DNA of 64,000 bases from assembly GCF_001618865.1 (NCBI RefSeq), contig NZ_CP015136.1, forward strand, positions 3,197,001 to 3,261,000. Direction: 5' to 3'. Of the stretch, positions 5,001 through 19,962 are shown one piece after another; the first letter of the stretch is position 1; each line of letters begins with the position of its first letter. The stretch is from Luteitalea pratensis (GTDB lineage: Bacteria; Acidobacteriota; Vicinamibacteria; Vicinamibacterales; Vicinamibacteraceae). A program made the position numbers and the translations under genes. The notes under the pieces are model-generated. The model worked only from the letters and a program-made list of their open reading frames with translations. It was not told the origin of the DNA and did not search any database.

Positions 5001-5566
5001 AGCGATCACTCGATCCGACCGACGTGCGTCATCGTCTCGTGATCAGCGGCGTCTATGAGCTGCCCTTCGGCCCAGACAAGCCGTGGCTCACGAGTGGCGT
5101 CGCCTCGCACATTCTCGGGGGCTGGCAGATCAACTCGGTCACCACCATCCAGGGCGGCCTGCCGCTCGTCATACGCGGCGCGAACAACCAGCGCGCCGAC
5201 CGGCCCGATTATCTTGGCGGGGCTGAACTCGATGATCCGACAGCCGCGCGCTGGTTCAACACCGACGCGTTCGTGAACCCACCGAACTTCGAACTCGGAG
5301 ACGTCAGCCGGACCCTGCCGGACGCGCGCACACCGGGCGTCTTCAACATCGACCTCTCGCTCCTGAAACAGGTCTCGATTCGCGGGCGGGTGAAGCTCCA
5401 GCTCAGAGCCGAAGCCTTCAACGTCACCAATACCGTCAACCTGGGCTTTCCGAACACATCGTTCCAGGCAGGTCCCGACGGGCGCAACGTCAACTCGAGC
5501 TTCGGCCTAATCAGCTCCTCCCGGGATGCCCGCATCCTGCAGTTCGGCGCCCGGCTGGTGTTCTGA
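2045..5566 (+). CDS. TonB-dependent outer-membrane receptor, Oar-like, with carboxypeptidase-regulatory domain
   Basis: This 1173-aa protein has a long basic N-terminus and a hydrophobic signal segment at about residues 30-45 ending near PAAGQQ. A CarboxypepD_reg-like beta-sandwich follows (GSISGTVTDSSGGAV onward, ~51-130), then a plug-like region (~135-260) with VENRRVTELPLNGRN and DGATNNQSY, then a long beta-barrel ending in a terminal phenylalanine (FGARLVF), as in outer-membrane barrels. This is the standard acidobacterial Oar/SusC-like receptor. The start is supported by GGAG seven bases upstream of ATG 2045. As first gene of the ten-gene operon it probably imports oligosaccharides released from a uronic-acid-containing glycan. 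No SusD partner is visible. Confidence 0.93.
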   Translation: MRWLVLMARSVHSAHRPAVIRADARHLAGTGLVALAVLLLPLPAAGQQGRGSISGTVTDSSGGAVNDATVTITNVGTQAAVTARTSDTGVYTAPSLAVGEYTVVAEKAGFKTAVATGITLQVDEGARVDLRVEPGEISERIEVRAATPLVNTSSATVGKVVENRRVTELPLNGRNALALMALVPSVKSNSGPTQSGFSDRGVALSAISINGGPGGINQYVLDGATNNQSYLADINVNPAVDAVEEFKVQTSTMSSEFGFTAGGVVNIVTKSGTNQFKGSLYDFVRNSRFDAKNAFATDKPQFEYNQGGGAIGGPIKLPSLYNGTNRSFFFFNFEAWNFSREQPTTQTVPTDAMRRGDFSNLRDASGRLIVLYDPATTRANPNGAGFIRDPFPNNIIPANRLDPVAQNILPFYPLANRDPDNPFTNANNWRDNLDETRDMRQWTTKVDHRLSSQNSLSARYNYYRHYADGGFSQSPWPDPIVRKRYDTLTTHNFVVSDTHSFGTGLLHEVRLSNARQGFPFVVASFGGDWPAQLGLPSSVPGDTFPNISNGLQPFNTGTAGQRDSSTWQFFDMLTWVKGSHTLKLGTDLRHQQALNLQRQQPSGNFNFPAGLTGNPQSQAGTGSAFATFLLGAVGFSPNLNAAALATTHLPEDHTAWSATGFVQDDWKASRRLTVNLGLRYDYQAPPKERSCATSNFNPFATNPENGLLGRMEYACVDYGGTFLEPDTNDFAPRVGFAYDLLGTGRTVVRGGYGLFYATNFHRDYFGATNGFANTSTQYNPPGGNANLAAFRLQDGFPTPVIEPLGAALGPSAFLGGGVSYDEPNGKNIASHQWTLSFQQQVFGNWLLEAAYSANRATHLISGGYDLNQLDPQYYSLGLALQDQVPNPYAGRVPGGFGAPTISRLQSLRPYPYYANINVRNPHQGFSEYHALLLSAEKRLSDGFVLLTSYTFGKLMSDSVVIPINFGPVEQVTTVGYQNGKFDRRAERSLDPTDVRHRLVISGVYELPFGPDKPWLTSGVASHILGGWQINSVTTIQGGLPLVIRGANNQRADRPDYLGGAELDDPTAARWFNTDAFVNPPNFELGDVSRTLPDARTPGVFNIDLSLLKQVSIRGRVKLQLRAEAFNVTNTVNLGFPNTSFQAGPDGRNVNSSFGLISSSRDARILQFGARLVF

Positions 5567-5568
5567 TC

Positions 5569-7836
5569 GTGGCCCTGGTCTTCAGCCTGCGGGCCGCGGC
5601 TCGGCGCCTTTGGCGGACCCTGTCTGGTGCAGCGGCACTGGCAGTGCTGCTGACCGAGGCTCACGCGCAGGGCCACGTTGCGCCCTGGACGACGCCGATC
5701 GTCGTCGAAGCGCCGACCTTCCGCGTCCGGATCGATCCCGCCGGATTCCGCTACGGCATCGAGCGCCGCGATGGCACCGTCCTCGCCGCGCCACACGCCG
5801 AGTCCGGGTTGCAGATCCGCACCGAAAGCGGTGGCGGCGCCGTGGTGTCGACGAGCAACGCTGCAGTGAGCCCACGCGGGCTGGACGCGACAGTCCGCAC
5901 GGCCGATGGCATCGAAGCGCGAGTGGCGATGACCATCGAGCCCTCGGGCTTCCGTCTCTCGGTGAAGCCGGCCGCCGATGGGCGCTACACGATCGTGGCC
6001 CGCACGAGCGGCGTCGGCCCCGCCTTCGGCCTGGCCGACCACGCCGCCTTCAAGCGCACGACGACCGAGCTCACGGGCTTCGAGCTCGAGCGGTTCCGCG
6101 CGGGCAGTGCTGGCTCCGGTGCCGTTCGCCTCGTCAGCAACTTCATCATCGCCCCTCGCCAGGGCGTCGCGCACGTGAACGTCCACCCCGGCCTGAAGGT
6201 CGTCAGGGTCACCGCCGCCGAGCAGGCGCAGGGGAGCCGCGACGTCCGCGAGCTGACGGCGCTGCACTACTTCGTCGGCACGCCGCAGGAGATCTACCAG
6301 CGGTTCCTGGACGTCCGCAATGCGAGCGGCTACAAGGTGTACAAGCCGAAGTACGAGTGGTTCGGCGTCGGGTGGGAGGCGTGGGGGGCACTCGCCTGGG
6401 ACACCAACCAGCGCACGGTGACCGAGAACGTCACGCGCTATCTCGATGCGGGCTTCCCGCTGCGGTGGATGGTCATCGGCTCGGGATTCTGGCCTCGTCA
6501 CGATCCGCGCTTCCACGCGACCACGAGCTTCGGGCTGTGGGATCCGTCTCTCTATCCCGATCCGAAGGGCCTCATCGACACGTTCCATCGCCGAGGCCTG
6601 AAGGTCACCCTCGGGCTGCGCATCGCGTTCATTCCGGACGGACCCTTCGCCGCCGAGGGCGTGCAGCGCGGGTTCTTCCTGACCGACAACGACAAGCCGG
6701 CGCTGTTCACCATCGGCTTCCCGCGGGTGCCCGTGCACCTGCTCGACGCGTTCAAGCCTGGCGCGGTCGACTGGTACCTGGCCCTGTGCCAGAAGTGGCT
6801 CGACTACGGCATCGACGGGTTCAAGGAAGATCTGTACGGCTTTGGCAAGTACGACCTGCGCGACGACAAGATCGACCCGGTGAACGCGGCGCTGATGGAC
6901 CGCGGCGCCTATGTCATGGGGCGCAACGCGTATCTTGGTTCGCCAGCCGATCTCCATCGGTACAACGACTTCAACTATTGGGAAACCCAGGATCGCGGGC
7001 CCATCAACGGGCTGGCGCTGGCCTACAGCGGTTTCCCCTACGTCTACCCGGACATCGTCGGCGGCACGATAGCGGCCACCGAGACCCAGGGGAAGCGGAC
7101 GATCCCGGACGCGGCGCTGAAGCAATACCTGATGCGCAACGCGCGCTACGCGTCCGTGCATCCCTCGATGGCCGTCGGCTACGGCCCCTGGAACCTCGAG
7201 GACGATCAGGTGAGCCGGATCATGCTCGAGTCGACATTGCTGCATGCGCGGCTGCATCCCTACATCTACAGCGCGGCCGTGCAGACCCATCGCACCGGGT
7301 TTCCCTTCACCATGACGCCGCTGCCGCTGGCCTTTCCTGACGATCCAGCCGTGTACGCGCTCGAGAACACCACGCGCCGCGGGTACCAGTGGCTGATTGG
7401 CGACGCGCTGATGGCGATTCCGCTCTACGGCGACGACTACGCCACCGCGAACACGCGCGACGTGTACCTGCCGCGGGGACGATGGATCGACTACGACACC
7501 GGCACTGCCTATGAGGGCCCGACGACGCTGTCGGCGCACGCAATTCCCGTGACCCGCAACCCGCTGCTCGTGGGCGGCACCGGAGTGGTCGTCGAGGAGC
7601 GTGATGGGCGGCTTGTCGCACGCATCTACCCCGTAACGTCGAAGGCGTCGACGACCTTTCACCATCGCGACGGGCGCGACACGTCGGTACGCATCGAGGT
7701 GGAGTCCTGGCGCCAACCGGCGGTGGTCACTGGCGGTGGTGTGTCAGTAGAGGCGGTGCACGACGGCGTTGCGCTGACCTTCCCTATCGAGCCGGGCGCG
7801 AGCTACGTCGTGCGATCAGCGGCGGCGCGGCCGTAA
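5569..7836 (+). CDS. Glycoside hydrolase family 31 (alpha-glycosidase/alpha-xylosidase type), secreted
   Basis: The start is a GTG two bases after the receptor stop. The 755-aa product begins with a signal peptide (hydrophobic ~15-30, cleavage near AHAQ). It has GH31 features: WMVIGSGFWP, then GIDGFKEDLYGF, where the second Asp (about D421) matches the nucleophile position of the KTDF motif of YicI-type alpha-xylosidases. Further on is a conserved Asp (about D475, ETQDRG) that could be the acid/base, followed by GFPYVYPDIVGG, close to the family G(I/F)P(F/Y)...D(I/V)GG block. A C-terminal beta domain completes it. Probably a periplasmic exo-acting alpha-glycosidase that trims side chains of the imported oligosaccharide. 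Specificity is not predictable, and GH31 also includes lyases and transglycosylases. Confidence 0.88.
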   Translation: MALVFSLRAAARRLWRTLSGAAALAVLLTEAHAQGHVAPWTTPIVVEAPTFRVRIDPAGFRYGIERRDGTVLAAPHAESGLQIRTESGGGAVVSTSNAAVSPRGLDATVRTADGIEARVAMTIEPSGFRLSVKPAADGRYTIVARTSGVGPAFGLADHAAFKRTTTELTGFELERFRAGSAGSGAVRLVSNFIIAPRQGVAHVNVHPGLKVVRVTAAEQAQGSRDVRELTALHYFVGTPQEIYQRFLDVRNASGYKVYKPKYEWFGVGWEAWGALAWDTNQRTVTENVTRYLDAGFPLRWMVIGSGFWPRHDPRFHATTSFGLWDPSLYPDPKGLIDTFHRRGLKVTLGLRIAFIPDGPFAAEGVQRGFFLTDNDKPALFTIGFPRVPVHLLDAFKPGAVDWYLALCQKWLDYGIDGFKEDLYGFGKYDLRDDKIDPVNAALMDRGAYVMGRNAYLGSPADLHRYNDFNYWETQDRGPINGLALAYSGFPYVYPDIVGGTIAATETQGKRTIPDAALKQYLMRNARYASVHPSMAVGYGPWNLEDDQVSRIMLESTLLHARLHPYIYSAAVQTHRTGFPFTMTPLPLAFPDDPAVYALENTTRRGYQWLIGDALMAIPLYGDDYATANTRDVYLPRGRWIDYDTGTAYEGPTTLSAHAIPVTRNPLLVGGTGVVVEERDGRLVARIYPVTSKASTTFHHRDGRDTSVRIEVESWRQPAVVTGGGVSVEAVHDGVALTFPIEPGASYVVRSAAARP

Positions 7837-7837
7837 G

Positions 7838-9400
7838 ATGCGCCGCGGAGGTTGTCCAGACATGCCAAGCCCCCTCATTCCACGTGCGGTCACGCCAGCC
7901 GTCACCGGGCATCGCCGGCCGCGGACGCGCCTGGTGGTGTTCGCGGCGCTGCTGCTCGCGACGGTGGTCGACGTGCCAGGGCTCGGCGCGCAATCGGCGC
8001 GCGCGCCGCAACCTGCGCCGTCAACCGCCGCGGCCCAGACGCCAACCCCGCGTCCGCAGATCGGCGGCATCTTTCCGCATCTGTCGGTCGTATCGGAGCA
8101 TGAGCCGCGGTCCGAAGCCGGCATTGGCGCGCTCGTCCCCTGGGCCGATCGTCTCTGGTTTGTCGGCTACGTGGCTCACATCGCCGGCGCCGGCCTCGGG
8201 CTATACGAGGTGGACGCGACCATGGAGATGCGCCGCCATCCGGCCAGCGTCACCGGAACGTTCGCCAACCGGTTGATTCACAATCCGTCGAACCAGGCGA
8301 TCATCGGGCCCCACATCATCGACACCAAGGGCGTGGTCCGCACCTTCCCGGAGATGGCGAAACATCGTCTCGCCGCGACGATGGAGCACCTGACCGATCC
8401 GGCCCAGCTGGTCTACTTCCTGACGATGGAAGGACTGCTGTTCGAGGCGAACGTGAAGACGCTCGAGGCCAGGCAGCTGTTCGATCTCGTGAAGGTGCTG
8501 GAGCTGCCGGCGGGAACGCGTCCACATTTCAAGAGCGCCTACACCGATGCCGGTCGCGTCGTTGTCGCCAACAACACCTATGACGAGCGCGACTTCAAGC
8601 GCGAGCTCGCCGGCGGGCGACTGGCCGAGTGGGATGGCAAGACGTGGACGATTCTCGAGCGCAAGCCGTTCGTCGAGGTGATGGGGAAGGCCTGGGCGCC
8701 CGACACCTTCGGCCGGCCCATCTACGCCACCGGCTGGGATCGAGCGTCGGCCATCCTCAAGGTGTTCCGCAATGGGGCCTGGAGCACGTACCGTCTGCCC
8801 AAGGGCGGGCAGACGTTCGATCACGCCTGGAACACCGAGTGGATGCGCATCCGCGAGGTGCAGACCGAGCGATTCCTGATGGACCTTCACGGCCTCTTCT
8901 ACGAGCTGCCGTCGCTCTCGTACGACGGTCGCGTGTGGGGGATTCTGCCTGTCGCGCGACACCTCAGGATGGTTCCGGACTTCTGCTCGTGGCGCGGCCT
9001 GCTCGTGCTCGGTGGCGACCAGACCGATCGCAGCGTCGGCCAGCCGCAGTCGGGGCTCTGGTTCGGTCACCAGGACGAACTGTGGGGGTGGGGGAAGCCG
9101 CAGGGCTGGGGCGGGCCCTGGTGGGAGGATCGCGTCGAAGCAAACGCGCTGTCCGACCCGTTCCTGATGACCGGCTTCGACAAGAAGGTGCTGCACCTGT
9201 CGCAGCAGGGCGCGCCGAGCGTGAAGGTCACCGTCGAAGTCGACTTCATGGGCAACGGTCGCTGGCACACGTACGCGGAACTGAGTGTGCCCGACGGCGG
9301 CTACGTGCACCACGAGTTCCCGGCCGGCTTCTCCGCGCACTGGGTTCGCCTGAAGGTGAGCCAGGCGGCCACGATGACCGCGCAGTTCGTCTACTCGTGA
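7838..9400 (+). CDS. Secreted protein of unknown function in the glycan operon
   Basis: This 520-aa protein starts one base after the GH31 stop. An internal ATG at 7862 is an alternative start. A signal peptide is evident (VVFAALLLATVV, cleavage near LGAQS), followed by a Pro/Ala-rich linker (~48-70). The mature part is rich in short beta-strand-like segments and aromatic residues (WADRLWFVGYV, WDRASAILKVF, LWFGHQDELWGW), suggesting a propeller-like fold, and ends in a beta-sandwich-like stretch (VTVEVDFMGNGRWHTY). I do not recognise a catalytic family. Its position between GH31 and GH2 suggests an accessory glycan-binding protein or an undescribed carbohydrate-active enzyme. That role rests on context only. 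Confidence 0.8.
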   Translation: MRRGGCPDMPSPLIPRAVTPAVTGHRRPRTRLVVFAALLLATVVDVPGLGAQSARAPQPAPSTAAAQTPTPRPQIGGIFPHLSVVSEHEPRSEAGIGALVPWADRLWFVGYVAHIAGAGLGLYEVDATMEMRRHPASVTGTFANRLIHNPSNQAIIGPHIIDTKGVVRTFPEMAKHRLAATMEHLTDPAQLVYFLTMEGLLFEANVKTLEARQLFDLVKVLELPAGTRPHFKSAYTDAGRVVVANNTYDERDFKRELAGGRLAEWDGKTWTILERKPFVEVMGKAWAPDTFGRPIYATGWDRASAILKVFRNGAWSTYRLPKGGQTFDHAWNTEWMRIREVQTERFLMDLHGLFYELPSLSYDGRVWGILPVARHLRMVPDFCSWRGLLVLGGDQTDRSVGQPQSGLWFGHQDELWGWGKPQGWGGPWWEDRVEANALSDPFLMTGFDKKVLHLSQQGAPSVKVTVEVDFMGNGRWHTYAELSVPDGGYVHHEFPAGFSAHWVRLKVSQAATMTAQFVYS

Positions 9401-9407
9401 GGGCGAC

Positions 9408-11591
9408 GTGAACACGAGCCGACTGTGGGTCGCGACCGGAGCACTGCTGGCAGCGTCGGCGCTGGCGACGCGTGCCGCTCCATTCCTCGCCACGCACGCT
9501 CGATCTGCCACGTCCCTGTCCGCGGCACAGCCGACTGCATCGGCACGTACGGCCGTGAGCCTCAACGGCGAATGGCACTTTGCCGTCGACCCCGCCGGCG
9601 AGGGAGAGCGCGATCGCTGGTTTGCGCCGGACCTCGACCAACGCCGGTGGGATCGCGTCGACGTGCCGCATTGCTGGCCAGTCGATCCCCGCTACCAGTA
9701 CACGGGCCGTGCGTGGTACCGACGGTCGTTCACACCGCCGGAGCCCATCGGCAGCCGGCACGCGCGCATCGAGTTCGACGCCGTGTTCGCCCGCGCCCGC
9801 GTGTGGCTCAATGGGACGCTGGTCGGCGCGCACGAGGGCGGTTACACGCCATTCGGATTCGACGTCACAGACCTGCTGAAGAGCGGCCAGCCGAACGTCG
9901 TGGCCGTCGAGGCCGACAACAGCTGGAGCACCAGGACGATGCCGGGCGCGCGCCCGGGAACCGACCCGTCGGTGCGCGTCTATCCCTGGTGGGACTACGG
10001 CGGTATCGTCCGTCCGGTCGCCCTGGTCGTGTCGCCGCCGGTGTACATCCAGAAGCAGCGGATCACGACGACGCCTGATCTTGCGAGCGGTGCCGCCGCG
10101 ATCGAAGTAGCGGTCTGGGTGCGCAACACGACAGCCCAGCGCGCGTCGTCGCGCCTCCGGATGACCATCGTCCGGCTCGATGGCGATCGCGAGTTCGCAC
10201 TCGACACACCCGCCGCCCGCTGGGAAGCTTCGGCCGAGACGCTGGCCGGCGAGACCAAGGCCGTGACGGTGCGCACCACGCTACCCAAGGGCGCGGTCCA
10301 GCTGTGGGGCCTCGACACGCCGACGTTGTACAAGCTGCGCGCCGAGCTGATCACCGAGTCGGCCCCGGCCACGGCCGATCTGCACGACGCGACGTTCGGG
10401 ATTCGCCGGTTCGAAGTGCGCGGCGAAGAACTGCACTTGAACGGCCGGGCGGTGCGCCTCGGCGGCGCCAATCGCCCGAGCGACGATCCGGTGTTCGGCC
10501 TGATCGAGCCGGCTGCCGTCGTCGAGCGCGACGTCAGGCTGATGAAGGCGGCGGGCATGGAACTGCAGCGCATCAATCACCATGCACCACCGCCCGCGTT
10601 GCTCGACCTCGCAGATCGCCTGGGAATGTTGATCGTGCCCGAGGCCGCCAACTGGCAGTTGCAGCCCTCGCAGATGGACGATCCGGCGATGCGCGCCGAC
10701 TTCGAGCGTCAGATGCGCGAACTCGTCGAACGCGACTGGAACCACCCGTCGGTGGTCGCGTGGAGCGTCGGCAACGAGTATCCGTCCGACACGCCGTCCG
10801 GCGTGCGATGGACCAGGGACATGGCGGCGTTCGTCCGTACCATCGATCGGTCGCGGCCGATCACGTTTGCGAGCTATCGCGCTTTCAGAGCCGATCTCGC
10901 CAGGCCCGAAGACGAGGGGTCGCACTACGTGGACTTTGTCAGCATCAACAGCTACGCCCCGGCGGAGCGCCTCGGCGCGGTGCTCGATCTCGTACACCAG
11001 CGCTATCCAGGCAAACCGATCGTCATCAGCGAGTTCGGTGTGCGCGAGGACAAGGTCGCCAGCCGGGACGAGAGACGACGCTACTTCAGTCAGGCGGCCG
11101 CGGTCCTGCGTCAGCGTCCATTCGTCGCCGGCGCGTCGGTATGGACCTTCCAGGACTATCGCAGCCGATTCCCCGACACGGCGCCAAACGGGTACCGGCC
11201 CTGGGGCCTGGTCGGTCCCGACCGGGCGCCGCGCGACGCGTACCACGTCGTCGCGACCGAGTTCGCGACGGTGCGCATCGCGGCGGCGCCCATGTCCTTG
11301 GCCGGCGGACGTCTCATCGCTCGCGTCGAAGTGCAGGCGCGCCCGGATTTCCCCTCGCGTCGCATCAGCGGCCTGACGCTCCGGATCGTTGCAAAAGACA
11401 GCGCCAATCCGCGTGTCGAGACCGCGCTGCCGGACCTCGCGCCCGGCGAACGGATCCAACGCGTCCTCGCGGTCGCGGCCCCCACGTCGGCGGCCGAACT
11501 GTCGCTCGAGATCGTCAGGCGTGACGGCAGCGTGATGCATCGCCTGGCCGCGATCGATCGCCTGACGCCGCGCCAGCAGGTGTCTCAATGA
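9408..11591 (+). CDS. Glycoside hydrolase family 2 (beta-galactosidase/beta-glucuronidase type)
   Basis: A GTG start lies seven bases after the previous stop. The 727-aa product has a signal-like N-terminus, a GH2 sugar-binding domain (~45-200, with the WYRRSF and FDAVFARARVWLNG blocks), an immunoglobulin-like domain (~220-325) and a TIM barrel (~330-620). The catalytic pair is visible: the acid/base Glu is about E457 in WSVGNEYPS and the nucleophile is about E542 in VISEFGV. GH2 enzymes remove beta-linked galactose, glucuronate or mannose. The neighbouring unsaturated-uronyl hydrolase and hexuronate-type transporter make beta-glucuronidase a reasonable guess but not a proven one. It overlaps the SDR gene by four bases (ATGA). 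Confidence 0.93.
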   Translation: MNTSRLWVATGALLAASALATRAAPFLATHARSATSLSAAQPTASARTAVSLNGEWHFAVDPAGEGERDRWFAPDLDQRRWDRVDVPHCWPVDPRYQYTGRAWYRRSFTPPEPIGSRHARIEFDAVFARARVWLNGTLVGAHEGGYTPFGFDVTDLLKSGQPNVVAVEADNSWSTRTMPGARPGTDPSVRVYPWWDYGGIVRPVALVVSPPVYIQKQRITTTPDLASGAAAIEVAVWVRNTTAQRASSRLRMTIVRLDGDREFALDTPAARWEASAETLAGETKAVTVRTTLPKGAVQLWGLDTPTLYKLRAELITESAPATADLHDATFGIRRFEVRGEELHLNGRAVRLGGANRPSDDPVFGLIEPAAVVERDVRLMKAAGMELQRINHHAPPPALLDLADRLGMLIVPEAANWQLQPSQMDDPAMRADFERQMRELVERDWNHPSVVAWSVGNEYPSDTPSGVRWTRDMAAFVRTIDRSRPITFASYRAFRADLARPEDEGSHYVDFVSINSYAPAERLGAVLDLVHQRYPGKPIVISEFGVREDKVASRDERRRYFSQAAAVLRQRPFVAGASVWTFQDYRSRFPDTAPNGYRPWGLVGPDRAPRDAYHVVATEFATVRIAAAPMSLAGGRLIARVEVQARPDFPSRRISGLTLRIVAKDSANPRVETALPDLAPGERIQRVLAVAAPTSAAELSLEIVRRDGSVMHRLAAIDRLTPRQQVSQ

Positions 11592-12364
11592 GGCTGGCCG
11601 GTCAGGTCGCAATCGTGACCGGGGCCGGGTCTGGCATCGGCCGTGCCTCGGCCCTCCGGTTCGCTCGCGAGGGCGCTTGTGTGACCGTCGTCGACCTCGA
11701 CGCCTCGGCCGCCGACGCCGTCGCCGCTGAGATTGTCGGTGAGGGCGGCGCAGCGTTCGGCGTCGCCGGCGACGCATCGCGAGAAGACGACGTCGCGACG
11801 ATGGTGGAGCGCACGGTGCAGGCGTACGGCTCGCCAACCGTGCTCGTGAACAGCGCCGCGACGACGTCGTTCGGCACACTGGCGGAGTCGGCGGTGCAGG
11901 AACTCGATCGCGTCATGCGCGTCAACGTCGGCAGTGCCTGGATCTGCGCGCGTGCCGTCATTCCGCTGATGCGGGCGGCGGGCGGCGGCGCCATCGTCAA
12001 CCTGTCGTCGATCACCGGGATCGTCGGCGCGCCTGGCATGGCCGCCTATTCGACGTCGAAAGGCGCCATCATCACGTTGACGAGGACGCTCGCGCTCGAA
12101 CTGGCGGAAGAGGGCATTCGCGTGAATTGCATCTGTCCGGCATCGATCGACACCCCGATGCTTCAGGCGTCTTTCGATCGGCAGGCCGATCCGCAGGCCG
12201 CGCGCGCCCGAAACGTGAAGCGGCATCCGCTGGGGCGGCTGGGCACGGCGGAGGATGTTGCGAACCTGGCGTTGTTCCTGGCGTCGGACGAAGCCGCGTT
12301 CATCACCGGCGGCACGTACGTCGTCGACGGCGGTGCGCTGCTCGCGCGCCGGTGGCAGGAGTAG
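11588..12364 (+). CDS. Short-chain dehydrogenase/reductase (classical SDR)
   Basis: This 258-aa protein shows the full SDR signature: the Rossmann motif TGAGSGIG at residues 10-17, an acidic Asp after beta-2 (VVDLDA) favouring NAD(H), NSAAT in place of the usual NNAG, Ser in SSITG, and the catalytic YSTSK (Y154, K158). The C-terminal GGTYVVDGG is typical. It is cytosolic and translationally coupled to the GH2 gene through ATGA. In this context it probably oxidises or reduces a sugar, a sugar acid or a 2-keto-3-deoxy intermediate made by the enolase-superfamily dehydratases. The Asn-to-Ser change in the NNAG motif is a small deviation worth noting. Confidence 0.93.
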   Translation: MRLAGQVAIVTGAGSGIGRASALRFAREGACVTVVDLDASAADAVAAEIVGEGGAAFGVAGDASREDDVATMVERTVQAYGSPTVLVNSAATTSFGTLAESAVQELDRVMRVNVGSAWICARAVIPLMRAAGGGAIVNLSSITGIVGAPGMAAYSTSKGAIITLTRTLALELAEEGIRVNCICPASIDTPMLQASFDRQADPQAARARNVKRHPLGRLGTAEDVANLALFLASDEAAFITGGTYVVDGGALLARRWQE

Positions 12365-12368
12365 GCGG

Positions 12369-15326
12369 ATGAGACGCGGACGTGTCGGGCTGGCGGTCGG
12401 CCTCGCGGTCGCTCTGACCAGCGGTGGGTCGGTCTGGGGCGCGAGGGCTGCGGCAGACGCGGAGCTGCGCATCGAGAACGCGCGCTATCGTATCGTCGTC
12501 GAGCAGAGACGCGGTGCGCCCGCCGCACTGGTCGTGAGCCGCCTCGATCAACCGGGCGTGTCCCGGCGTCTGACGCCGGACGTGCGCGTGTTGATGACGA
12601 GGACCGACCCGGGCTACCGGGCGATGAGTCTCGGCGAGGAGGTCGTGCTCACGGCCGGATGGAAGCCCGCGGCGCCGCCTCCTCACGAGACCGAGCTGTT
12701 TGCGGGCGTGCCGGGGCAGAAACCGGCGCCGGTTAGCAACGAGAGCGATCTGTTCGCCGTCGCCTCGCCGCGGCAGCATCGGGCGACCGGCGTCACGGTG
12801 AAGGATGCGCAGACGCTGACCTTCTCGTTCAAGGCCGACCCGTCCTACGACGTCGCGCTCGCGATAGCGCTCGAGCCTGGGACTGCCGCGCCGATCATCG
12901 ACACGTCGGTGACGCCTCGGGTCGCAGGCTTCTATTCCGCTGCGTTCGGCGGCGTGGGGGGCCGCGAATCGGCCACGCTCGACTTCGTCTACCAGCCACT
13001 GGTCTGGTCCTGGCGGCGCTTTCCCGCCAAGTCATACCTCACGCCGGAGTCGATGGCGACAACCGCAGCGACGTTTGTGACGGCGGGGGGCCTGACGGAG
13101 GGCGTGGCGGCCGATCCGGCGGAGATCCCGTATCGCTTCGCCACGTTCCAGAACTCGCGCTTCGGGCTGACCCTACGCGACGTCGACGGCCGGGCGCGAC
13201 CGATGCTGTTTGCGCCGGTGCTCGGCGGCGAAGGGTCGCAGCGCGCGGCGGGCGAGCGGTTCGCGTTCAAAACGCGGTACGTGCTCGCGGCCGGCGACTG
13301 GTACGCCGGTCTCCAGCACGTCCTGCGCGACGTCTTCGCCTATCGCGCCGAACGGCAGAACGCGGCGATCTCGCTGAACGACACGCTCGACAACATGATC
13401 GCGTTTGCGATGGACGACGCGTATTCGGGCTGGGTGCCTGAGCTCAAGGGCTTCGACTACAAGTGGGACGTGCCGGGGACGGTGAAGGTGGTCTCGGCGC
13501 TGCACGCGTTGGGTGTGGCGCTGGTGACCGGCGATCGCGAGATCTATAACAGGCGGGCGCTGCCGCTCATCGAGTACGTGATGTCGCGCGAGAAGTACCT
13601 CTACGCGACCGACGAGGCGATCACCTACCAGAACCCGTCGCATTTCCTGCGGGGCCCGTGCGTCGAGATCGGCGAGCTGGCCGGCCTGTTCGCCATGACC
13701 GGCGGCAAGTCAGTGGGCTTCAAGCGTGAAGCGGAGCGTCTCTTCGGCAAGCCGCGACGCCTCAACCTGCTGACCGACACCGGCGGCGGTACCTGGCAGG
13801 ACGCGCTGGCCATGTACCGCATCACCGGGGAGCAATCCTGGCTGCAGAAGGCTCGCAGCGGCGCGGACGCGCATGTCAAGGCGGAGATCGACACGCTGCC
13901 AGGTGACTTCACGACCAACTCGGCGCTCGTCGACAAGCAGGCAGCCTTCTATATCGATTACGGGCCGCGTTGGTTCGATCTGTACGAGATATACGAGGCC
14001 ACCGGTGAGCGGCGCTACCTCGATGCTGCGATTACCTCGGCACGAGCCATGCTGCTGATGCTGCGTTCACAGCCGTTCGCGCCGGCGACGACCATGCTCG
14101 TCAACCAGGGAGGACGAGTCCCGGGCGTCGTCAACTGGCAGCGTGTGCCGAACCCGAAGAGCGGCCCGAACGAGCCCACCTGGATTCGTGTCCCTCGCGA
14201 TACGACGACTGCCGTGCCGGAGCAGCGCCTGCCAGCCTGGCGCACGTCGCTCGTCGGCTTACCGCCCGAGCAAGGGCGCACGTATGGTCTGGGGCCGATC
14301 ATGCTGACCCATCACGCGGCCTGGTTGATGCGTCTGGCCCACCATGCAAACGACCCGCTGCTTCGCGAGGCGGCCGAGAACGCCGTCCTTGGACGCTACG
14401 CCAACTTCCCCGGCTATTACTTCACGTCGTTCGAGACCAACGTCTATCAGCGGGCCGACTACCCGCTGCATTCGTACCAGGATCTGAAGTACAACGCGAT
14501 CTTCTACAACCATGTCTGGCCGCACATCGCGCTCCTCGTCGACTACCTGGTGAGCGACGCCTTCGCCCGGTCGGGCGGCCGCGTCGATTTCCCGTCGGCC
14601 TACGCGCCCGGCTATGCCTTCCTCACGAGCAAGGTCTACGGGCACCGGCTGGGGCGCATCAACGATGACAAGGACGTGGCCCTCTGGCTGCCGCGGCGGG
14701 CGGCGAGCTTCTCGACACCGGCGGTGAACCACCTGTTTGGCGTTGGCTCGGCCGACCTGCATCTGGTCCTGATGAACACGTCGACGGACGCCCAGGACGT
14801 GACCGTGAGGCTCGATCCCGACGTCGTCCCCTGGGATGCCGGCGTCCGCTACGACGTGGCGCTGACTGGAAGTGCGTCGGGTAACACGACGTCGATCGAT
14901 GGCGTGCTGCGCGTGCCCGTGGCCGGCAGGGGCTTCACGGTGGCGACGATTCGCAAGCTGGCGGTCGACCCGGCCTTCCAGCGGCGCGTCGTGACGGCGC
15001 TGCCTCAGCCGCCTTCAGATCGCGGGTTCTCGCGGGTCGAGACGGGCGTGCCGGCGATCGGAACGCTTACCGGCATGCTGCTCAGCGTCGTCCCTGAGTT
15101 TGCCGACGCCTTCGTCTACATGGATGCCACCGAGAAGGATGCGCGCGACGTCGAGTTCCGATATCGCCAGGGCGATGACGAGTGGACCGTCGTTCGCGAC
15201 ACGGCGTACCCCTTCGAACTGAGTGTGCACGTCGGCGATCCCTCGCGGGCGCTCGAGGTGAGGGTCACGGCGACCGATCATCGTGGCACCACGCACACCG
15301 GTCCGGCGCTCGTGCTGGCGCGCTAA
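12369..15326 (+). CDS. Large secreted protein of unknown function, possible helical-toroid carbohydrate-active enzyme
   Basis: ATG 12369, four bases after the SDR stop, gives 985 aa. The N-terminus is a clear signal peptide (basic MRRGR, hydrophobic core, cleavage near WGARA or ARAAA). Residues ~20-330 look like a beta-rich domain. Residues ~340-760 are helical with repeated aromatic and acidic motifs (FAMDDAYSGWVPELKG, DTGGGTWQDALAMYRITG, YIDYGPRWFDLYEIYEATG), the texture of an alpha/alpha toroid such as lyases or GH88-like enzymes. The C-terminal ~200 residues look beta-rich again. I cannot assign a CAZy family. The adjacent GH88/GH105 enzyme normally acts on polysaccharide-lyase products and no recognised lyase is present here, so this is the best candidate for the missing lyase. 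That is inference from context. Confidence 0.85.
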   Translation: MRRGRVGLAVGLAVALTSGGSVWGARAAADAELRIENARYRIVVEQRRGAPAALVVSRLDQPGVSRRLTPDVRVLMTRTDPGYRAMSLGEEVVLTAGWKPAAPPPHETELFAGVPGQKPAPVSNESDLFAVASPRQHRATGVTVKDAQTLTFSFKADPSYDVALAIALEPGTAAPIIDTSVTPRVAGFYSAAFGGVGGRESATLDFVYQPLVWSWRRFPAKSYLTPESMATTAATFVTAGGLTEGVAADPAEIPYRFATFQNSRFGLTLRDVDGRARPMLFAPVLGGEGSQRAAGERFAFKTRYVLAAGDWYAGLQHVLRDVFAYRAERQNAAISLNDTLDNMIAFAMDDAYSGWVPELKGFDYKWDVPGTVKVVSALHALGVALVTGDREIYNRRALPLIEYVMSREKYLYATDEAITYQNPSHFLRGPCVEIGELAGLFAMTGGKSVGFKREAERLFGKPRRLNLLTDTGGGTWQDALAMYRITGEQSWLQKARSGADAHVKAEIDTLPGDFTTNSALVDKQAAFYIDYGPRWFDLYEIYEATGERRYLDAAITSARAMLLMLRSQPFAPATTMLVNQGGRVPGVVNWQRVPNPKSGPNEPTWIRVPRDTTTAVPEQRLPAWRTSLVGLPPEQGRTYGLGPIMLTHHAAWLMRLAHHANDPLLREAAENAVLGRYANFPGYYFTSFETNVYQRADYPLHSYQDLKYNAIFYNHVWPHIALLVDYLVSDAFARSGGRVDFPSAYAPGYAFLTSKVYGHRLGRINDDKDVALWLPRRAASFSTPAVNHLFGVGSADLHLVLMNTSTDAQDVTVRLDPDVVPWDAGVRYDVALTGSASGNTTSIDGVLRVPVAGRGFTVATIRKLAVDPAFQRRVVTALPQPPSDRGFSRVETGVPAIGTLTGMLLSVVPEFADAFVYMDATEKDARDVEFRYRQGDDEWTVVRDTAYPFELSVHVGDPSRALEVRVTATDHRGTTHTGPALVLAR

Positions 15327-15342
15327 GAAGACGGCGCCACCG

Positions 15343-16386
15343 ATGAGCGCGACCAGTTACTTCCATCCAGATCGTCCGGATGCACTGCTTCGGACAGTCG
15401 CGGCGTGCACGATGCGCTGGCCGTTTCGTCTCTGGGCCTTTGGCGAGGCGGTGGCACTCCGCGGTCTGCTCGCGTCCAGTCGGGCCACCGGCGCCGAGGA
15501 GCCGCTCGGCTTCGTGCGCGCGCTGCTGCGCACCTATGTCGGGCGGGGCGTCGGCCGGAGCGCCGAGGAGCATGTGGCACCGGGCGCCGAGCTGCTGGCG
15601 CTTCACGCGCTGGATGGTGAGTCCACCTGGCTCGACGCCGCGCGGGCGCTCTCCCGGCTACACATGGCCACGCCACCCGGACCAGCCGGTGTGCGATACC
15701 TGCGCCCCGACCTGCCCGGCTGGCGCCGTCAGATCTGGGTCGATTCGATGGACGGGGGGCCGCCGTTTCTGGCCCGTCTCGCGCAGGTGACCGGCGATGA
15801 CACGTACGCGCACGAGGCCACGACGACACTGCTCGCGTACGCCCGGCTCCTGCAGGACGAGCGAAGCGGGTTGTTCGTGCACGGCTTCGAGGAGCACTGC
15901 GGCAGGAACGGACAACTCTGGGCGCGAGGGAACGGGTGGGCGGCGATGGGCCTGGTCGAGACACTCGCGTGGGTGCCGGGCGAGGCGCGACTGGCGGCCG
16001 AACTGCGGCAACGACTCGCCGCGCTTCTCGACGGACTTGCGGTGCTGCAGCAGTCGTCTGGGCTGTGGCCGACGGTGCTCGACCGACCTGAGTCGCCGCC
16101 CGAGACGACCCTGGCGGTGATGACCACGACCGCGATCGATCGTGCGCGCCAGGCCGGTGTGTTGCCGGGGAACTCGCACGAGTCGATGCGCGCCCGAGCG
16201 CAGGCCGCCGTGCTCGAGCAGGTATCGGCCTCGGGCGCACTCGGGCTCGTGTCTGACGCGACACCGATCGGCGAACTGCGGATGTATGTCACGCGACCGT
16301 TCGGTGTCTTCCCATGGGGGCAGGGCCCGCTGCTGCTCATGCTGGCAGGACCCCCCTCCACTTCGGAGCCTGGGAAGAGGCCATGA
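15343..16386 (+). CDS. GH88/GH105-type unsaturated uronyl hydrolase
   Basis: ATG 15343, 16 bases after the previous stop, gives 347 aa, a normal length for the family. It is an alpha/alpha toroid with the WVDSM motif (Asp ~134, the candidate proton donor) followed by PFLARLAQVTGD, and the diagnostic WARGNGWAAMGL block at residues 193-204. These match unsaturated glucuronyl and rhamnogalacturonyl hydrolases (YteR/UGL-like), which remove the 4,5-unsaturated uronic acid that polysaccharide lyases leave at the non-reducing end. No signal peptide is seen, so it probably acts in the cytosol on imported oligosaccharides. The stop overlaps the next start (ATGA). It is the strongest evidence that the locus handles lyase products of a uronic-acid polymer. 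Confidence 0.88.
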   Translation: MSATSYFHPDRPDALLRTVAACTMRWPFRLWAFGEAVALRGLLASSRATGAEEPLGFVRALLRTYVGRGVGRSAEEHVAPGAELLALHALDGESTWLDAARALSRLHMATPPGPAGVRYLRPDLPGWRRQIWVDSMDGGPPFLARLAQVTGDDTYAHEATTTLLAYARLLQDERSGLFVHGFEEHCGRNGQLWARGNGWAAMGLVETLAWVPGEARLAAELRQRLAALLDGLAVLQQSSGLWPTVLDRPESPPETTLAVMTTTAIDRARQAGVLPGNSHESMRARAQAAVLEQVSASGALGLVSDATPIGELRMYVTRPFGVFPWGQGPLLLMLAGPPSTSEPGKRP

Positions 16387-17594
16387 AGATCACCCGCATC
16401 GAGACCTTTGCCGTGCAGGCGCCGCCGTCGGATGCGCGGCCGTACTGGGGGAGCCGCGCATGGGGACGCCCCAGCACCGCCGCCGCGCCCGAGATCTCGG
16501 CCGAGTACCCGACGCCGATCCGCCGGCGCTACCTCTACTCGGCGACGATCGACACCGTGATCGTCCGGTTGACGACCGACACCGGGCTCGTCGGTCATGG
16601 CGAGGCCAAGGCGCCGGTGGCGCCGCAGGCGACCAAGGCGATCATCGATCTGCTTCTGGCCGATCTCGTGCGCGGCGCCGACCCGCGCGACGTCACCGTG
16701 CTGTGGGAGCGGATGTACGCCGGCATGCGGGTGCGCGGCCACCGCGCCGGCTTCTATCTCGAGGCGATGAGCGGCATCGACATCGCGCTCTGGGATCTGG
16801 CGGCGCAGGCGGCGGGTGTGCCCATCGCGTCGCTCCTGGGCGGCGTGTTCCGCGATCCCATCCGCGTCTACGCGTCGGGTCTGCCGGCGCTCGATCTCGA
16901 TGCCGACGACGAGGCGCTCGAGGCGCTCGTCCAGGAGGCGCTCCGGCTGCGTGCCCAGGGCTACACAGGCCTCAAGATGGCCCTCGGCAAGGGGATCGCC
17001 GGCGATCTGCGCAGCGTGCGCGCCGTGCGCGAACGCCTGGGTGCGGACTTCCTCATCTACACGGATGCCGCCGGGGTGTACGACAGAGCGCAGGCGCTCA
17101 GGTTGGGGCGGCAACTCGAGGAGCTTGGCGCTGCCTGGCTCGAGATGCCCATTCCACCAGAGGACGTCGAGGGCTACGGCGTCCTGGCCCAGGCCCTGAC
17201 GCTGCCGATTGCGCTCGACTCACTGTCGTCGCGCTATGAGGTCGCCGCGTTCGTGCAATGCCGCGGTCTCGACGTGGTGCAGCCAGACGTCTGTCGCGCT
17301 GGCGGCATCACCGAGTGCCGGCGGATTGCGGAGCTTGCCGACGCCTTCGGCCTCGCGTTTGCGCCGCACGTCAGCATCGGATCGGCCGTGCACATCGCGG
17401 CGACCATGCACCTGGCGGCGGCGATGCCCAATACCATGACCAGCGAGTACTGGATTGGCGACAACCCGATTGGCAACGCCTGGCTGACCGAGCCGATCCA
17501 GGTCGAGGCGGGCTACGTGTCGCTGCCCCGCCGCCCGGGGCTCGGCCTCGCCTTTGCCCCCGACGCGCTGGATCGCTGGGCGGACCCGCGATGA
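16383..17594 (+). CDS. Enolase-superfamily (mandelate racemase/muconate lactonizing type) dehydratase, second paralog
   Basis: ATG 16383, inside the ATGA overlap with the GH88/GH105 gene, gives 403 aa beginning KITRIETFAV, a typical family start. Visible catalytic features are Lys198 (GLKMALGKG), metal ligands Asp228 (YTDAAG) and Glu254 (WLEMPIPPED), and His329 (PHVSIGS). Where the paralog at 1-1159 has LGESYR for the third metal ligand, this protein has ALDSLSSR (Asp279), one residue shorter, so that ligand may be Asp rather than Glu. Probable role: cytosolic dehydration of an acid sugar. Two paralogs in one regulon suggest two different acid sugars are processed, or that one has changed function. 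Confidence 0.92.
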   Translation: MKITRIETFAVQAPPSDARPYWGSRAWGRPSTAAAPEISAEYPTPIRRRYLYSATIDTVIVRLTTDTGLVGHGEAKAPVAPQATKAIIDLLLADLVRGADPRDVTVLWERMYAGMRVRGHRAGFYLEAMSGIDIALWDLAAQAAGVPIASLLGGVFRDPIRVYASGLPALDLDADDEALEALVQEALRLRAQGYTGLKMALGKGIAGDLRSVRAVRERLGADFLIYTDAAGVYDRAQALRLGRQLEELGAAWLEMPIPPEDVEGYGVLAQALTLPIALDSLSSRYEVAAFVQCRGLDVVQPDVCRAGGITECRRIAELADAFGLAFAPHVSIGSAVHIAATMHLAAAMPNTMTSEYWIGDNPIGNAWLTEPIQVEAGYVSLPRRPGLGLAFAPDALDRWADPR

Positions 17595-18889
17595 CACCTT
17601 CCGCGTCGCACGCCGGCCCCTCACCGGGGCTCCGAAGCATCCCCAACCTGCGCTGGTGGATCGTCGGGATCCTCTTCCTGTCGACGGTCATCAATTACGT
17701 CGATCGCCAGACGCTGTCGGTGCTCGCGCGCACCATCCAGGACGATCTCGGCATCTCCGACAGCGGCTACGCCCGCATTGTCCAGGCGTTCCTGCTGGCG
17801 TACACGATCTCCTATCTCGTATCCGGACGGATCACCGACTGGCTCGGCACGCGCGTCAGCATGGCGGCGTTCATCGTCTGGTGGTCGCTGGCGAACATCG
17901 GGACGGCCTTCGCTTCCTCGATCTTCACGCTGGGACTCTGGCGACTGCTCCTAGGTGTCGGAGAGCCGGGCAACTGGACGGTGGGTCCCAAGGCGCTGTC
18001 CGAGTGGTTCCCAGCTCGCGAGCGCGGCCTTGCCTACGGCATCTTCACCATGGGGGCGACGATTGGCGCGACCGTCGCGCCACCGCTGATCGCCTGGCTC
18101 GCACTCTCGTATGGATGGCGGGGCGCCTTCGTCGTCACCGGGGTGCTCGGGCTGCTGTGGGTGATTCCCTGGCTCTGGCTGTACCGGCCACCGCACGAGC
18201 ACCCTCGACTGACCGACGCGGAGCGCGTTCTCGTGCCGCCTGCGCCGACATCGACAACTGGCGGCGCCGAGTGGACGCTGTGGCGCACGCTGCTCACCCA
18301 GCGGGACACGTGGCTGCTGCTCGGCACACGCGTACTGACCGATCCGGTCTGGTACTTCTACCTGTTCTGGTTTCCGAAGTACCTCACGGACACTCGCGGG
18401 CTGTCGCTGATCGAAGTCGGGCGCGTCGCATGGGTCGTGTATCTGGCGGCTGATCTCGGGGCGCTCGGCGGCGGCTGGCTCTCGGGCCGCCTGATCGACC
18501 GTGGCTACGCGCCCGTGGCGGCGCGCAAGCTGGTGCTGCGGATTGCCGCGACGACGATCCTCGTCGGTCCCCTGGTCGCATGGGCCCCGTCGATACCGCT
18601 GGTCCTGTTGTGCGCCGCCGTCGTCGCCTGCTCACAGCTCGCGTGGCAGGTCACGATCGGAGCGCTCATCGTCGATCGGTATCCGCCTGCGTCGGTGGCG
18701 ACGGCGTTCGGGATTGTCGCTGCCGGCAGCGGGTTCGGCGGCATGGTCTCGACCGGCGTTGTTGGATATCTGGTCAGCAACTACTCGTACGTGCCCGTGT
18801 TTGTCACGATGGCGCTGCTGCACCCGCTGGCGCTGGCGCTCGTCTGGTTCCTGCGCGGTGACCGTACGGCCGAGGGTGCGGCACCATGA
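17591..18889 (+). CDS. MFS transporter, anion:cation symporter (ACS) family, hexuronate-transporter-like
   Basis: The start is ATG 17591, overlapping the dehydratase stop, giving 432 aa with about 12 hydrophobic segments. The N-terminal block LRWWIVGILFLSTVINYVDR followed by LSVLARTIQ is the ACS-family signature (compare ExuT, GudP and GarP), and there is a conserved RITDWLGTR loop between TM2 and TM3. WFPARERGLAYGIFTMGATIG is another family block. It should be an inner-membrane proton symporter for a hexuronate or aldonate liberated by the glycosidases. The next gene starts within its stop (ATGA at 18886). Function is inferred from family and context. Confidence 0.93.
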   Translation: MTPSASHAGPSPGLRSIPNLRWWIVGILFLSTVINYVDRQTLSVLARTIQDDLGISDSGYARIVQAFLLAYTISYLVSGRITDWLGTRVSMAAFIVWWSLANIGTAFASSIFTLGLWRLLLGVGEPGNWTVGPKALSEWFPARERGLAYGIFTMGATIGATVAPPLIAWLALSYGWRGAFVVTGVLGLLWVIPWLWLYRPPHEHPRLTDAERVLVPPAPTSTTGGAEWTLWRTLLTQRDTWLLLGTRVLTDPVWYFYLFWFPKYLTDTRGLSLIEVGRVAWVVYLAADLGALGGGWLSGRLIDRGYAPVAARKLVLRIAATTILVGPLVAWAPSIPLVLLCAAVVACSQLAWQVTIGALIVDRYPPASVATAFGIVAAGSGFGGMVSTGVVGYLVSNYSYVPVFVTMALLHPLALALVWFLRGDRTAEGAAP

Positions 18890-19962
18890 ACCCGTATCAG
18901 GCCTGTACGCACGAGCGCAATTTCGGCAGTCGCCTGCGCGAGATCGTCTGGCGCGGCCACCGCTGCGTGATCCTGGAGAACGAGCGGCTCCGCGTGCTCG
19001 TCGTCGCCGACAAGGGCGCCGACGTGCTCGAGTTCCTTTACAAGCCGCTCGACGTCGAACTGCTATGGCACTCGTACCACGGCCTGCGCCGGGCCGGACC
19101 AGAGCGGGCTTCGTCGCCGCTTCCCGAGGGGCCGTTCCGCGATCAGTTCGCCGGCGGCTGGTACGAGATGCTGCCCAACGGTCCCGAACCGAGCGTGCAT
19201 CGCGGCGCGTCCTTTGGCTTCCACGGCGAGGCGACCTTTCTGCCGTGGGACTATCGCATCGTCACCGACGAGCCTGAGAGGGTTGTCGTCACGTTCTCGG
19301 TGCGCCTTGTGCGTCTGCCGATCTACGTCGAGAAGACACTGACGCTCGCACAGGGCGCGTCGACGCTGGTCATCGATGAACGGCTCGTCAGCGAGGCGGG
19401 GCACACGATCGAAGTGCTGTGGGGACAGCATCCGACGTTCGGCTGGCCATTTCTCGAAGCCGGATGTCGCGTGTTCCTGCCGCCGTGCCGCGCGCGGGTT
19501 GGGGCGGCGCCACCGTCGGGTCACCGGCTGCGTCCGGATCAGGAGGCGCCCTGGCCGCATCTGGCTGGCGTCGACGGGTCGGTCGTCGATCTGTCGATCG
19601 TTCCCGGTCCGGACGCGCGTTCGCACGACTTCGTGCGACTGGACGACCTGAGCGACGGGTGGTACGCGATCGTCAATCCGCACCGCGGCCTCGGCTTCGC
19701 CTTGCGGTGGGATCCCGCATTGTTTCCGACGCTCGGACTCTGGCAGCTCCTGCGCGGCGGCGTCGACTATCCCTGGTACGGCCAGCCGTACCTCATGGCG
19801 CTGGAGCCCGCCTGCGACCTGCCGTCGCTGGCCGGCGCGGCGGCGCGCGGCGCGGCGATCCGCCTGGAGCCGGGCGCGCCGGTGACGACGCGGTTCGAGG
19901 CGACGGTGTTCACCGGCCTCGCCGAAGTCCTGTCGGTCGGGAAGGATGGAAACGTTCGCTGA
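18886..19962 (+). CDS. DUF4432/aldose-1-epimerase-like protein
   Basis: This 358-aa protein has the galactose-mutarotase-like beta-supersandwich texture. The N-terminal GHRCVILENERLRVLVVADKGADV resembles DUF4432 and aldose epimerase starts, followed by GLRRAGPE, FHGEATFLPW (His ~111), LWGQHPTFGWPF (His ~187) and a C-terminal FEATVFTGL strand. Proteins of this group occur in sugar-acid loci, probably handling anomers or keto/aldo interconversion of acid sugars. It is the last gene of the operon. The next recognisable sequence is the left end of an IS element only about 20 bp downstream, so the operon's natural 3' border may have been lost. An AGCACC/GGTGCT hairpin (19975-19989) without a T-tract lies at that junction. 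Confidence 0.85.
   Translation: MNPYQACTHERNFGSRLREIVWRGHRCVILENERLRVLVVADKGADVLEFLYKPLDVELLWHSYHGLRRAGPERASSPLPEGPFRDQFAGGWYEMLPNGPEPSVHRGASFGFHGEATFLPWDYRIVTDEPERVVVTFSVRLVRLPIYVEKTLTLAQGASTLVIDERLVSEAGHTIEVLWGQHPTFGWPFLEAGCRVFLPPCRARVGAAPPSGHRLRPDQEAPWPHLAGVDGSVVDLSIVPGPDARSHDFVRLDDLSDGWYAIVNPHRGLGFALRWDPALFPTLGLWQLLRGGVDYPWYGQPYLMALEPACDLPSLAGAAARGAAIRLEPGAPVTTRFEATVFTGLAEVLSVGKDGNVR

Follow-up and report, generated by a model that had tools for sequence, protein, structure and literature searches.

The gene at positions 12,369 to 15,326 of the window, a stretch of 64,000 nucleotides from Luteitalea pratensis (contig NZ_CP015136.1, positions 3,197,001 to 3,261,000), encodes a protein of 985 amino acids (aa), P0001, which is most likely an exported enzyme that breaks acidic complex sugars. 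Since it has no match above cut-off in the family libraries, is predicted to contain a toroid fold and has homologs in glycan-degradation neighbourhoods, P0001 very probably represents a new carbohydrate-active enzyme family absent from Pfam and NCBIfam (the literature was checked by word searches, not by sequence). With regard to its chemistry, our tentative preference is elimination at a uronate, by a lyase or a dehydratase, which we favour only slightly over hydrolysis. An earlier note on this DNA had put P0001 forward as the missing polysaccharide lyase (PL) of its operon or as a new family of carbohydrate-active enzymes: a new family with a toroid is well supported, whereas the missing lyase is possible but unproven.

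The reading frame is free of stops throughout, and because long homologs are found in other genomes, it is not a chance open reading frame. The longest frame begins at 12255. As a start there would make the frame overlap the SDR gene, which ends at 12364, and as AGGAG stands just 5' of the ATG at 12369, where a signal-like N-terminus opens, we consider ATG 12369 the sensible start. From the Sec-signal-like appearance of this N-terminus, judged by eye, we infer that P0001 is exported. The host genome (7,480,314 bases in one contig, completeness 100) holds no second copy, the other match having an E-value of 0.09.

The P0001 family and its predicted fold

Homologs occur in 3 of 297 genomes of the own phylum (own genome included), in 16 of 288 genomes of the phylum to which G299, the genome with locus L009, belongs, and in 21 of 195 genomes of the family of Chitinophaga barathri (G302). 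A pattern scan of species genomes matched 19 stretches (9 homolog loci), from Verrucomicrobiota and Bacteroidota. The nearest homologs, in genomes G062 and G297, share about 51-54% identity with P0001; homologs are 39-54% identical in G062 and 31% in G202, and best-segment identity amounts to 38-49% in nine named contigs. By size the family falls into three clades, A (about 950 aa, including P0001), B (about 1140 aa) and C (about 880 aa), which are joined by profile scores and by the tree (alignments A1 against A3, hhalign E 2.2e-42) and probably span three phyla. All three clade types lie within about 20 kb in 11 of the 21 homolog-bearing genomes of the C. barathri family. After rows shorter than 850 aa had been dropped, 66 of the 82 rows found were retained, and 47 of these 66 make up the tree.

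P0001 itself matches nothing above cut-off in Pfam, the best hit being the catalytic domain of glycoside hydrolase (GH) family 127 (PF07944; 13.2 bits against a cut-off of 24.9, E 0.045), and it has no match in NCBIfam or among the PDB sequences; seven further members scanned with NCBIfam also stayed below cut-off. A strong match to a known family, which the earlier note had named as speaking against its proposal, was thus not found for P0001. Across 39 aligned members, the GH127 model matches 20 at E <= 1 (best 1.8e-05, Pfam scan), and 13 further Pfam families each appear in one or two members, none of them a lyase. Outside this set, a clade-B protein scores 25.2 bits with GH127 over 93 residues, and a clade-C protein scores 24.9 bits. 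As these matches are local and below or just at the cut-off, we rejected membership in GH127. Taken together, the weak local links of the family to PDB and Pfam sequences lead to GH76, YteR and the GH127 model. PF07470, the GH88/GH105 model, is absent from P0001 and appears in one of the 39 members (E 0.23). Lyase_8, Hepar_II_III and similar lyase models are found neither in P0001 nor in the 39 members, while the same Pfam library detects PL8 and heparinase II/III in neighbouring genes; a heparinase-II/III search of the own genome gave no match but was uninformative, as the controls matched nowhere either.

The AlphaFold2 model, built on a 10-row alignment (mean pLDDT 73.2, pTM 0.75), predicts i) a galactose-mutarotase-like beta-sandwich, ii) a helical toroid, presumably the catalytic domain, and iii) C-terminal beta domains (Table 1); a single-sequence model with a pLDDT of 36 was discarded. 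In VIA-align, a second look at Foldseek's own list with 50 rows shown, the sandwich aligns with 5wzn (Z 14.3, 208 residues aligned, 3.6 Å), the toroid with 3gt5 (Z 14.1, 284 aligned, 4.8 Å), 6y8f (Z 13.5, 260 aligned, 3.9 Å) and 2afa (Z 13.3), i.e. with N-acylglucosamine-2-epimerase-type (AGE-type) and GH76 proteins, and residues 886-985 with the CBM56 structure 5t7a (Z 11.0, 91 aligned, 2.6 Å). We are fairly sure of the fold class that the model assigns and hold the predicted fold with medium confidence; the toroid-like middle domain described in the earlier note is supported. More than 300 residues are aligned in 9 of the 50 rows. The tightest of these is the PL27 lyase BACCELL_00875 (5no8; Z 12.8, 442 aligned, model residues 38-743, 9.8 Å), the only lyase among the rows shown, beyond which other lyases may lie; the remaining eight superpose at 17.7-22.1 Å, and five of them are GH94-type phosphorylases. 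The likeness of the modelled fold to PL27 is therefore no more than suggestive.

Within the 39 members the polar columns R217, R329, S406, S627, E634, T638, R676, Y683, H715, D725 and S735 are invariant, and E402, R407, R655, W624 and Y713 nearly so. When all 66 rows including clade C are counted, R676, H715, D725 and S735 stay at 1.00 and E634 and R655 at 0.98; clade C departs at Y683, Y713, R217 and R329. The earlier note had expected a conserved catalytic Tyr/His/Asn set: Tyr and His, together with Arg and Glu, are invariant in the 39 members, but Asn679 is not. Mean conservation is 0.54 in the toroid, compared with 0.41 in the N-terminal and 0.42 in the C-terminal part. A conservation peak at the N-ends of alternate helices, the test for an active site on the inner helices, is absent (even mean 0.577, odd mean 0.559; 338 of 924 splits reach this difference).

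Table 1. Features of P0001 and of its operon (window coordinates).
Feature	Position	Strand	Basis
P0001, carbohydrate-active family protein, 985 aa, presumed exported	12369..15326	+	Open frame; homologs; no library match above cut-off
Signal-peptide-like N-terminus, residues 1-29	12369..12455	+	By eye, no signal-peptide program
Predicted galactose-mutarotase-like beta-sandwich, about residues 30-325	12456..13343	+	Model; VIA-align 5wzn, 4bze, 3mwx
Predicted helical toroid, about residues 327-740, presumed catalytic domain; 12 helices (own count, 336-734)	13347..14588	+	Model; VIA-align 3gt5, 6y8f, 2afa
Predicted C-terminal beta domains; residues 886-985 CBM56-like	14601..15323	+	Model; VIA-align 5t7a
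Stretch with invariant E634, T638, R676, Y683, H715, D725 and near-invariant R655, Y713	14268..14543	+	39 aligned members
Outer-membrane beta-barrel protein, TonB-dependent type	2045..5566	+	Pfam, NCBIfam
GH31	5569..7836	+	Pfam; nearest solved relative GH31 alpha-galactosidase 8j53
520-aa protein, second unclassified family	7838..9400	+	No Pfam match
GH2, beta-galactosidase/beta-glucuronidase type	9408..11591	+	Pfam; PDB relatives
SDR oxidoreductase	11588..12364	+	Pfam, NCBIfam
GH88/GH105-type protein, 347 aa, without an evident signal peptide (by eye)	15343..16386	+	PF07470
Enolase-superfamily protein	16314..17594	+	Sugar-acid dehydratases as best NCBIfam matches, sub-threshold; open frame without a settled start
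MFS transporter	17258..18889	+	D-galactonate transporter family as best NCBIfam match, sub-threshold; open frame without a settled start
DUF4432 protein	18886..19962	+	Pfam

Elimination or hydrolysis

In the mechanism that we propose, P0001 would carry out a beta-elimination at a uronate, most likely on side chains of an acidic heteroglycan, at their non-reducing end. The carboxylate would be bound by invariant arginines, R676 and perhaps R329 or R655, the conserved group H715/Y683/Y713/E634 would serve as base and acid, and the enzyme would release either the capping sugar, like PL27, or water, like the GH154 dehydratase BcGDH. The unsaturated uronyl end left behind would then be passed to the adjacent GH88/105 enzyme, whose gene the earlier note had placed two genes downstream, whereas P0001 directly precedes it, with 16 bases between its stop and the next ATG (15343). 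A uronate dehydratase, which the earlier note had not considered, is possible and fits P0001 as well as a lyase. In favour of elimination are the loose superposition of the model on PL27, the invariant polar residues, the position of P0001 immediately before the sole PF07470 match (E <= 1e-8) of its genome, the C. barathri homologs close to PL8, GH88 and heparinase-II/III genes, and the co-occurrence of GH154 with GH88/105 genes. More guarded is our wider proposal, which may well not hold: these secreted proteins would form a new superfamily that eliminates at uronates, either as exo-lyases or as dehydratases of oligosaccharides, that has a sandwich-toroid core like that of PL27, and that generates unsaturated uronyl ends separately from the lyase and dehydratase families already known.

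The earlier note had reasoned that a GH88/105 enzyme needs an end made by a lyase. This premise is weak, because dehydratases also supply such ends, as excerpts of two papers describe (PMC12269599, PMC8511951), and because of the following results on pairing, on the nearest homologs, on BglB and on KduI, all of which weigh against elimination by P0001 as well. The search for PF07470 covered 38 of the 45 genomes with a homolog; the seven others had partial matches or matched through clade C alone. Of the 38 genomes, 34 have such a gene somewhere, but only the own genome and that of C. barathri have one at most 20 kb away from a family member, with some contigs so short that neighbours may be missed. 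We therefore rejected a strict pairing of the family with GH88/105. The genomes of the nearest homologs, G062 (99% complete) and G297 (completeness not stated), are two of the four without a PF07470 match at E <= 1e-8. As for the operon's own GH88/105 protein, the only PF07470 match of its genome at this threshold, its PDB relatives are GH105, GH88 and YteR proteins. At E <= 1 NCBIfam gives it a single match, to the beta-galactosidase model BglB, whose 111.8 bits fall far short of the cut-off (420), and the GH88/105 protein may not be an unsaturated-uronide enzyme; a word search of the literature for GH105 beta-galactosidases returned nothing on point by title and abstract start. KduI (PF04962) is absent from the own one-contig genome and present in 13 of 15 genomes searched, with 5 of 14 controls matched. 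We read this absence as a caution rather than a refutation, since two RpiB-type isomerase matches in the own genome keep a DhuI-type route possible and an SDR of the DEH-reductase type could replace the KduI step.

The same direction is indicated by the partner genes of the family, which are mostly other hydrolases (GH29, GH97, GH3, GH2, GH31), and by the structural and sequence comparisons. Foldseek matches are weak (best E 3.8e-05; none of the 50 rows shown exceeds a query-length TM-score of 0.20), the model superposes only loosely on PL27, and the PDB chains reached at E <= 10 by four family profiles (13, 4, 4 and 39 members; hmmsearch) include no lyase, an absence that marks a detection limit and is no proof of unrelatedness. 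Finally, the invariant residues E634 and D725 would fit a hydrolase of the inverting kind just as well.

A plausible alternative, if short of probable, is that P0001 founds a new glycoside hydrolase family, whose toroid would hydrolyse with inversion, E634 serving as acid and a second carboxylate, E402 or D725, as base. The terminal sugar that it removes would belong to a heteroglycan that is acidic or rich in galactose, and the GH88/105 protein would either catalyse a separate step or not be an unsaturated-uronide enzyme. Besides the BglB match and the missing KduI, this is favoured by the frequent hydrolase partners, which are accompanied by esterases and sulfatases, by the weak sequence links to the six-hairpin proteins GH76 and YteR and to the GH127 model, and by the relatives of operon genes beside other family members: the GH31 protein shares 50% identity with a GH31 in locus L128 that adjoins a clade-B homolog, and the GH2 protein, whose PDB relatives are beta-galactosidases and beta-glucuronidases, 42-44% with GH2 genes in the homolog loci L089, L113 and L128. 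In addition, the SDR, sugar-acid-dehydratase-like and galactonate-type MFS genes of the operon would fit an oxidative use of aldoses. However, the invariant Arg/His/Tyr residues exceed the needs of a simple hydrolase, and D725 lies within a predicted helix and may be structural. Moreover, C. barathri homologs lie near PL8, GH88 and heparinase-II/III genes: one follows PL8 and GH88 genes in this order, in a stretch with GH78 rhamnosidase domains, and a second has a heparinase-II/III gene next but one.

It is improbable that elimination is the task of the 520-aa neighbour instead, or that no enzyme of the operon performs it because other organisms make the unsaturated substrate. The earlier note had seen no known lyase signature in the operon, and the ten proteins that were run against Pfam and NCBIfam indeed show none; nevertheless, the 520-aa protein is unclassified too, having no Pfam and no convincing PDB match. 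It belongs to a conserved family with homologs in 2 other genomes among 149 searched in the phylum, and the homolog in G036 lies near DHDPS-family and MFS genes. Least likely is a sugar epimerase, an isomerase or a non-catalytic binding protein on a toroid scaffold: the toroid matches AGE-type as well as GH76 proteins, and one clade-C member has a weak match to a C5-epimerase C-terminus (E 0.0048, below cut-off), but P0001 is large, apparently exported, multidomain and located in degradation loci, and the polar set in its toroid is strongly conserved.

The operon and related loci

The genes of the operon are arranged in the order outer-membrane beta-barrel, GH31, 520-aa protein, GH2, SDR, P0001, GH88/105, enolase superfamily, MFS and DUF4432, and a 51%-identical relative of the MFS gene stands beside the homolog in L006. 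Neighbouring genes were clustered over 49 stretches, the window among them (two stretches overlap; L131 and L132 were left out as repeats of included places), and the clusters were named from the members scanned, SusC and SusD by our own reading. The commonest are FAD oxidoreductases (25 stretches), SusD-like (14), SusC-like (12) and GH97 proteins (12), followed by GH3 (8), sulfatases (6) and GH29 (6). In the subclade of P0001 (12 tree rows), 7 of the 11 rows besides P0001 have an FAD-oxidoreductase gene in their stretch, 5 have GH29 and 4 a sulfatase. A literature word search for FAD oxidoreductases in such loci found nothing.

Some loci show further arrangements. Two homologs (L014, 9809-13384; L012, 9557-14311) carry extra C-terminal sequence with a GDS-type SGNH esterase motif, recognised by eye, and in L011 and L007, of the P0001 subclade, separate SGNH genes adjoin the homolog. 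Chitinophagaceae loci such as L089 contain three paralogs (about 880, 1140 and 945 aa) clustered with SGNH, GH3, GH97 and GH2 genes. On contig C11 of C. barathri, the region 338-436 kb (L086, L087, L088) assembles five family genes in 100 kb and also holds PL8, GH88, GH78, heparinase-II/III and FAD-oxidoreductase genes.

Comparison with known systems

The P0001 family is undescribed in Pfam and NCBIfam yet recurs in glycan-degradation loci. Elimination at uronates, if true, would give GH88/105 enzymes a new source of substrate, and hydrolysis would probably mean a new GH family; either chemistry would help to interpret loci of unknown substrate.

Enzymes of the GH15/GH65/GH94 type combine a mutarotase-like sandwich with a following toroid, the same domain order as in P0001, and several Foldseek and VIA-align rows belong to them; however, the GH94-type rows that cover both domains superpose at 17.7-20.7 Å, and GH15/GH65/GH94-type proteins are absent from the PDB sequence matches. 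The six-hairpin toroids (GH76, GH88/105 including YteR, GH127 and AGE-type epimerases) resemble P0001 by fold in the case of GH76 and AGE-type proteins and by weak local sequence matches in the case of GH76, YteR and GH127, but they differ in domain architecture, and the match of P0001 stays below the Pfam cut-off. Toroid lyases of PL8, PL12, PL15, PL17 and PL21 share a conserved catalytic Asn/His/Tyr/Arg set. In the P0001 family, His715, Tyr683 and Arg676 are invariant in the 39 members and Asn679 is not.

PL27 is a partner of GH105-type enzymes. The model of P0001 reproduces the beta-sandwich followed by an (alpha/alpha) toroid of the PL27 L-rhamnose-alpha-1,4-D-glucuronate lyase (BACCELL_00875, 5NO8), for which an excerpt of PMC8377490 describes a beta-sandwich at the N-terminus, an (alpha/alpha)6 barrel after it and a reaction that releases rhamnose and desaturates glucuronic acid. 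In contrast to PL27, P0001 continues after the toroid with beta domains that add about 240 residues at the C-terminus, and 5NO8 is unlisted at E <= 10 by the four profiles, at the sensitivity of one-profile HMMER searches and assuming that 5NO8 is present in the sequence set.

Two kinds of dehydratase that supply GH88/105 enzymes with unsaturated ends are described, in excerpts of the respective papers, for ulvan (P29_PDnc; PMC8511951) and for chondroitin (BcGDH of GH154; PMC12269599). The BcGDH construct has 400 residues compared with the 985 of P0001. GH154 is unlisted at E <= 10 in the PDB profile searches, a comparison limited by the diversity of the family (22% identity between two members, according to an excerpt of PMC12269599) and by the unchecked presence of its entries in the set; the BcGDH fold falls outside the 50 VIA-align rows shown, which leaves a likeness possible. 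PMC12269599 further proposes a Tyr/Arg set (Y229, Y289, R285) for BcGDH and reports that GH154 genes co-occur with GH88/105 and that the two proteins tested are dehydratases. In its proposed role P0001 would resemble GH154/BcGDH, as either would feed a GH88/105 enzyme.

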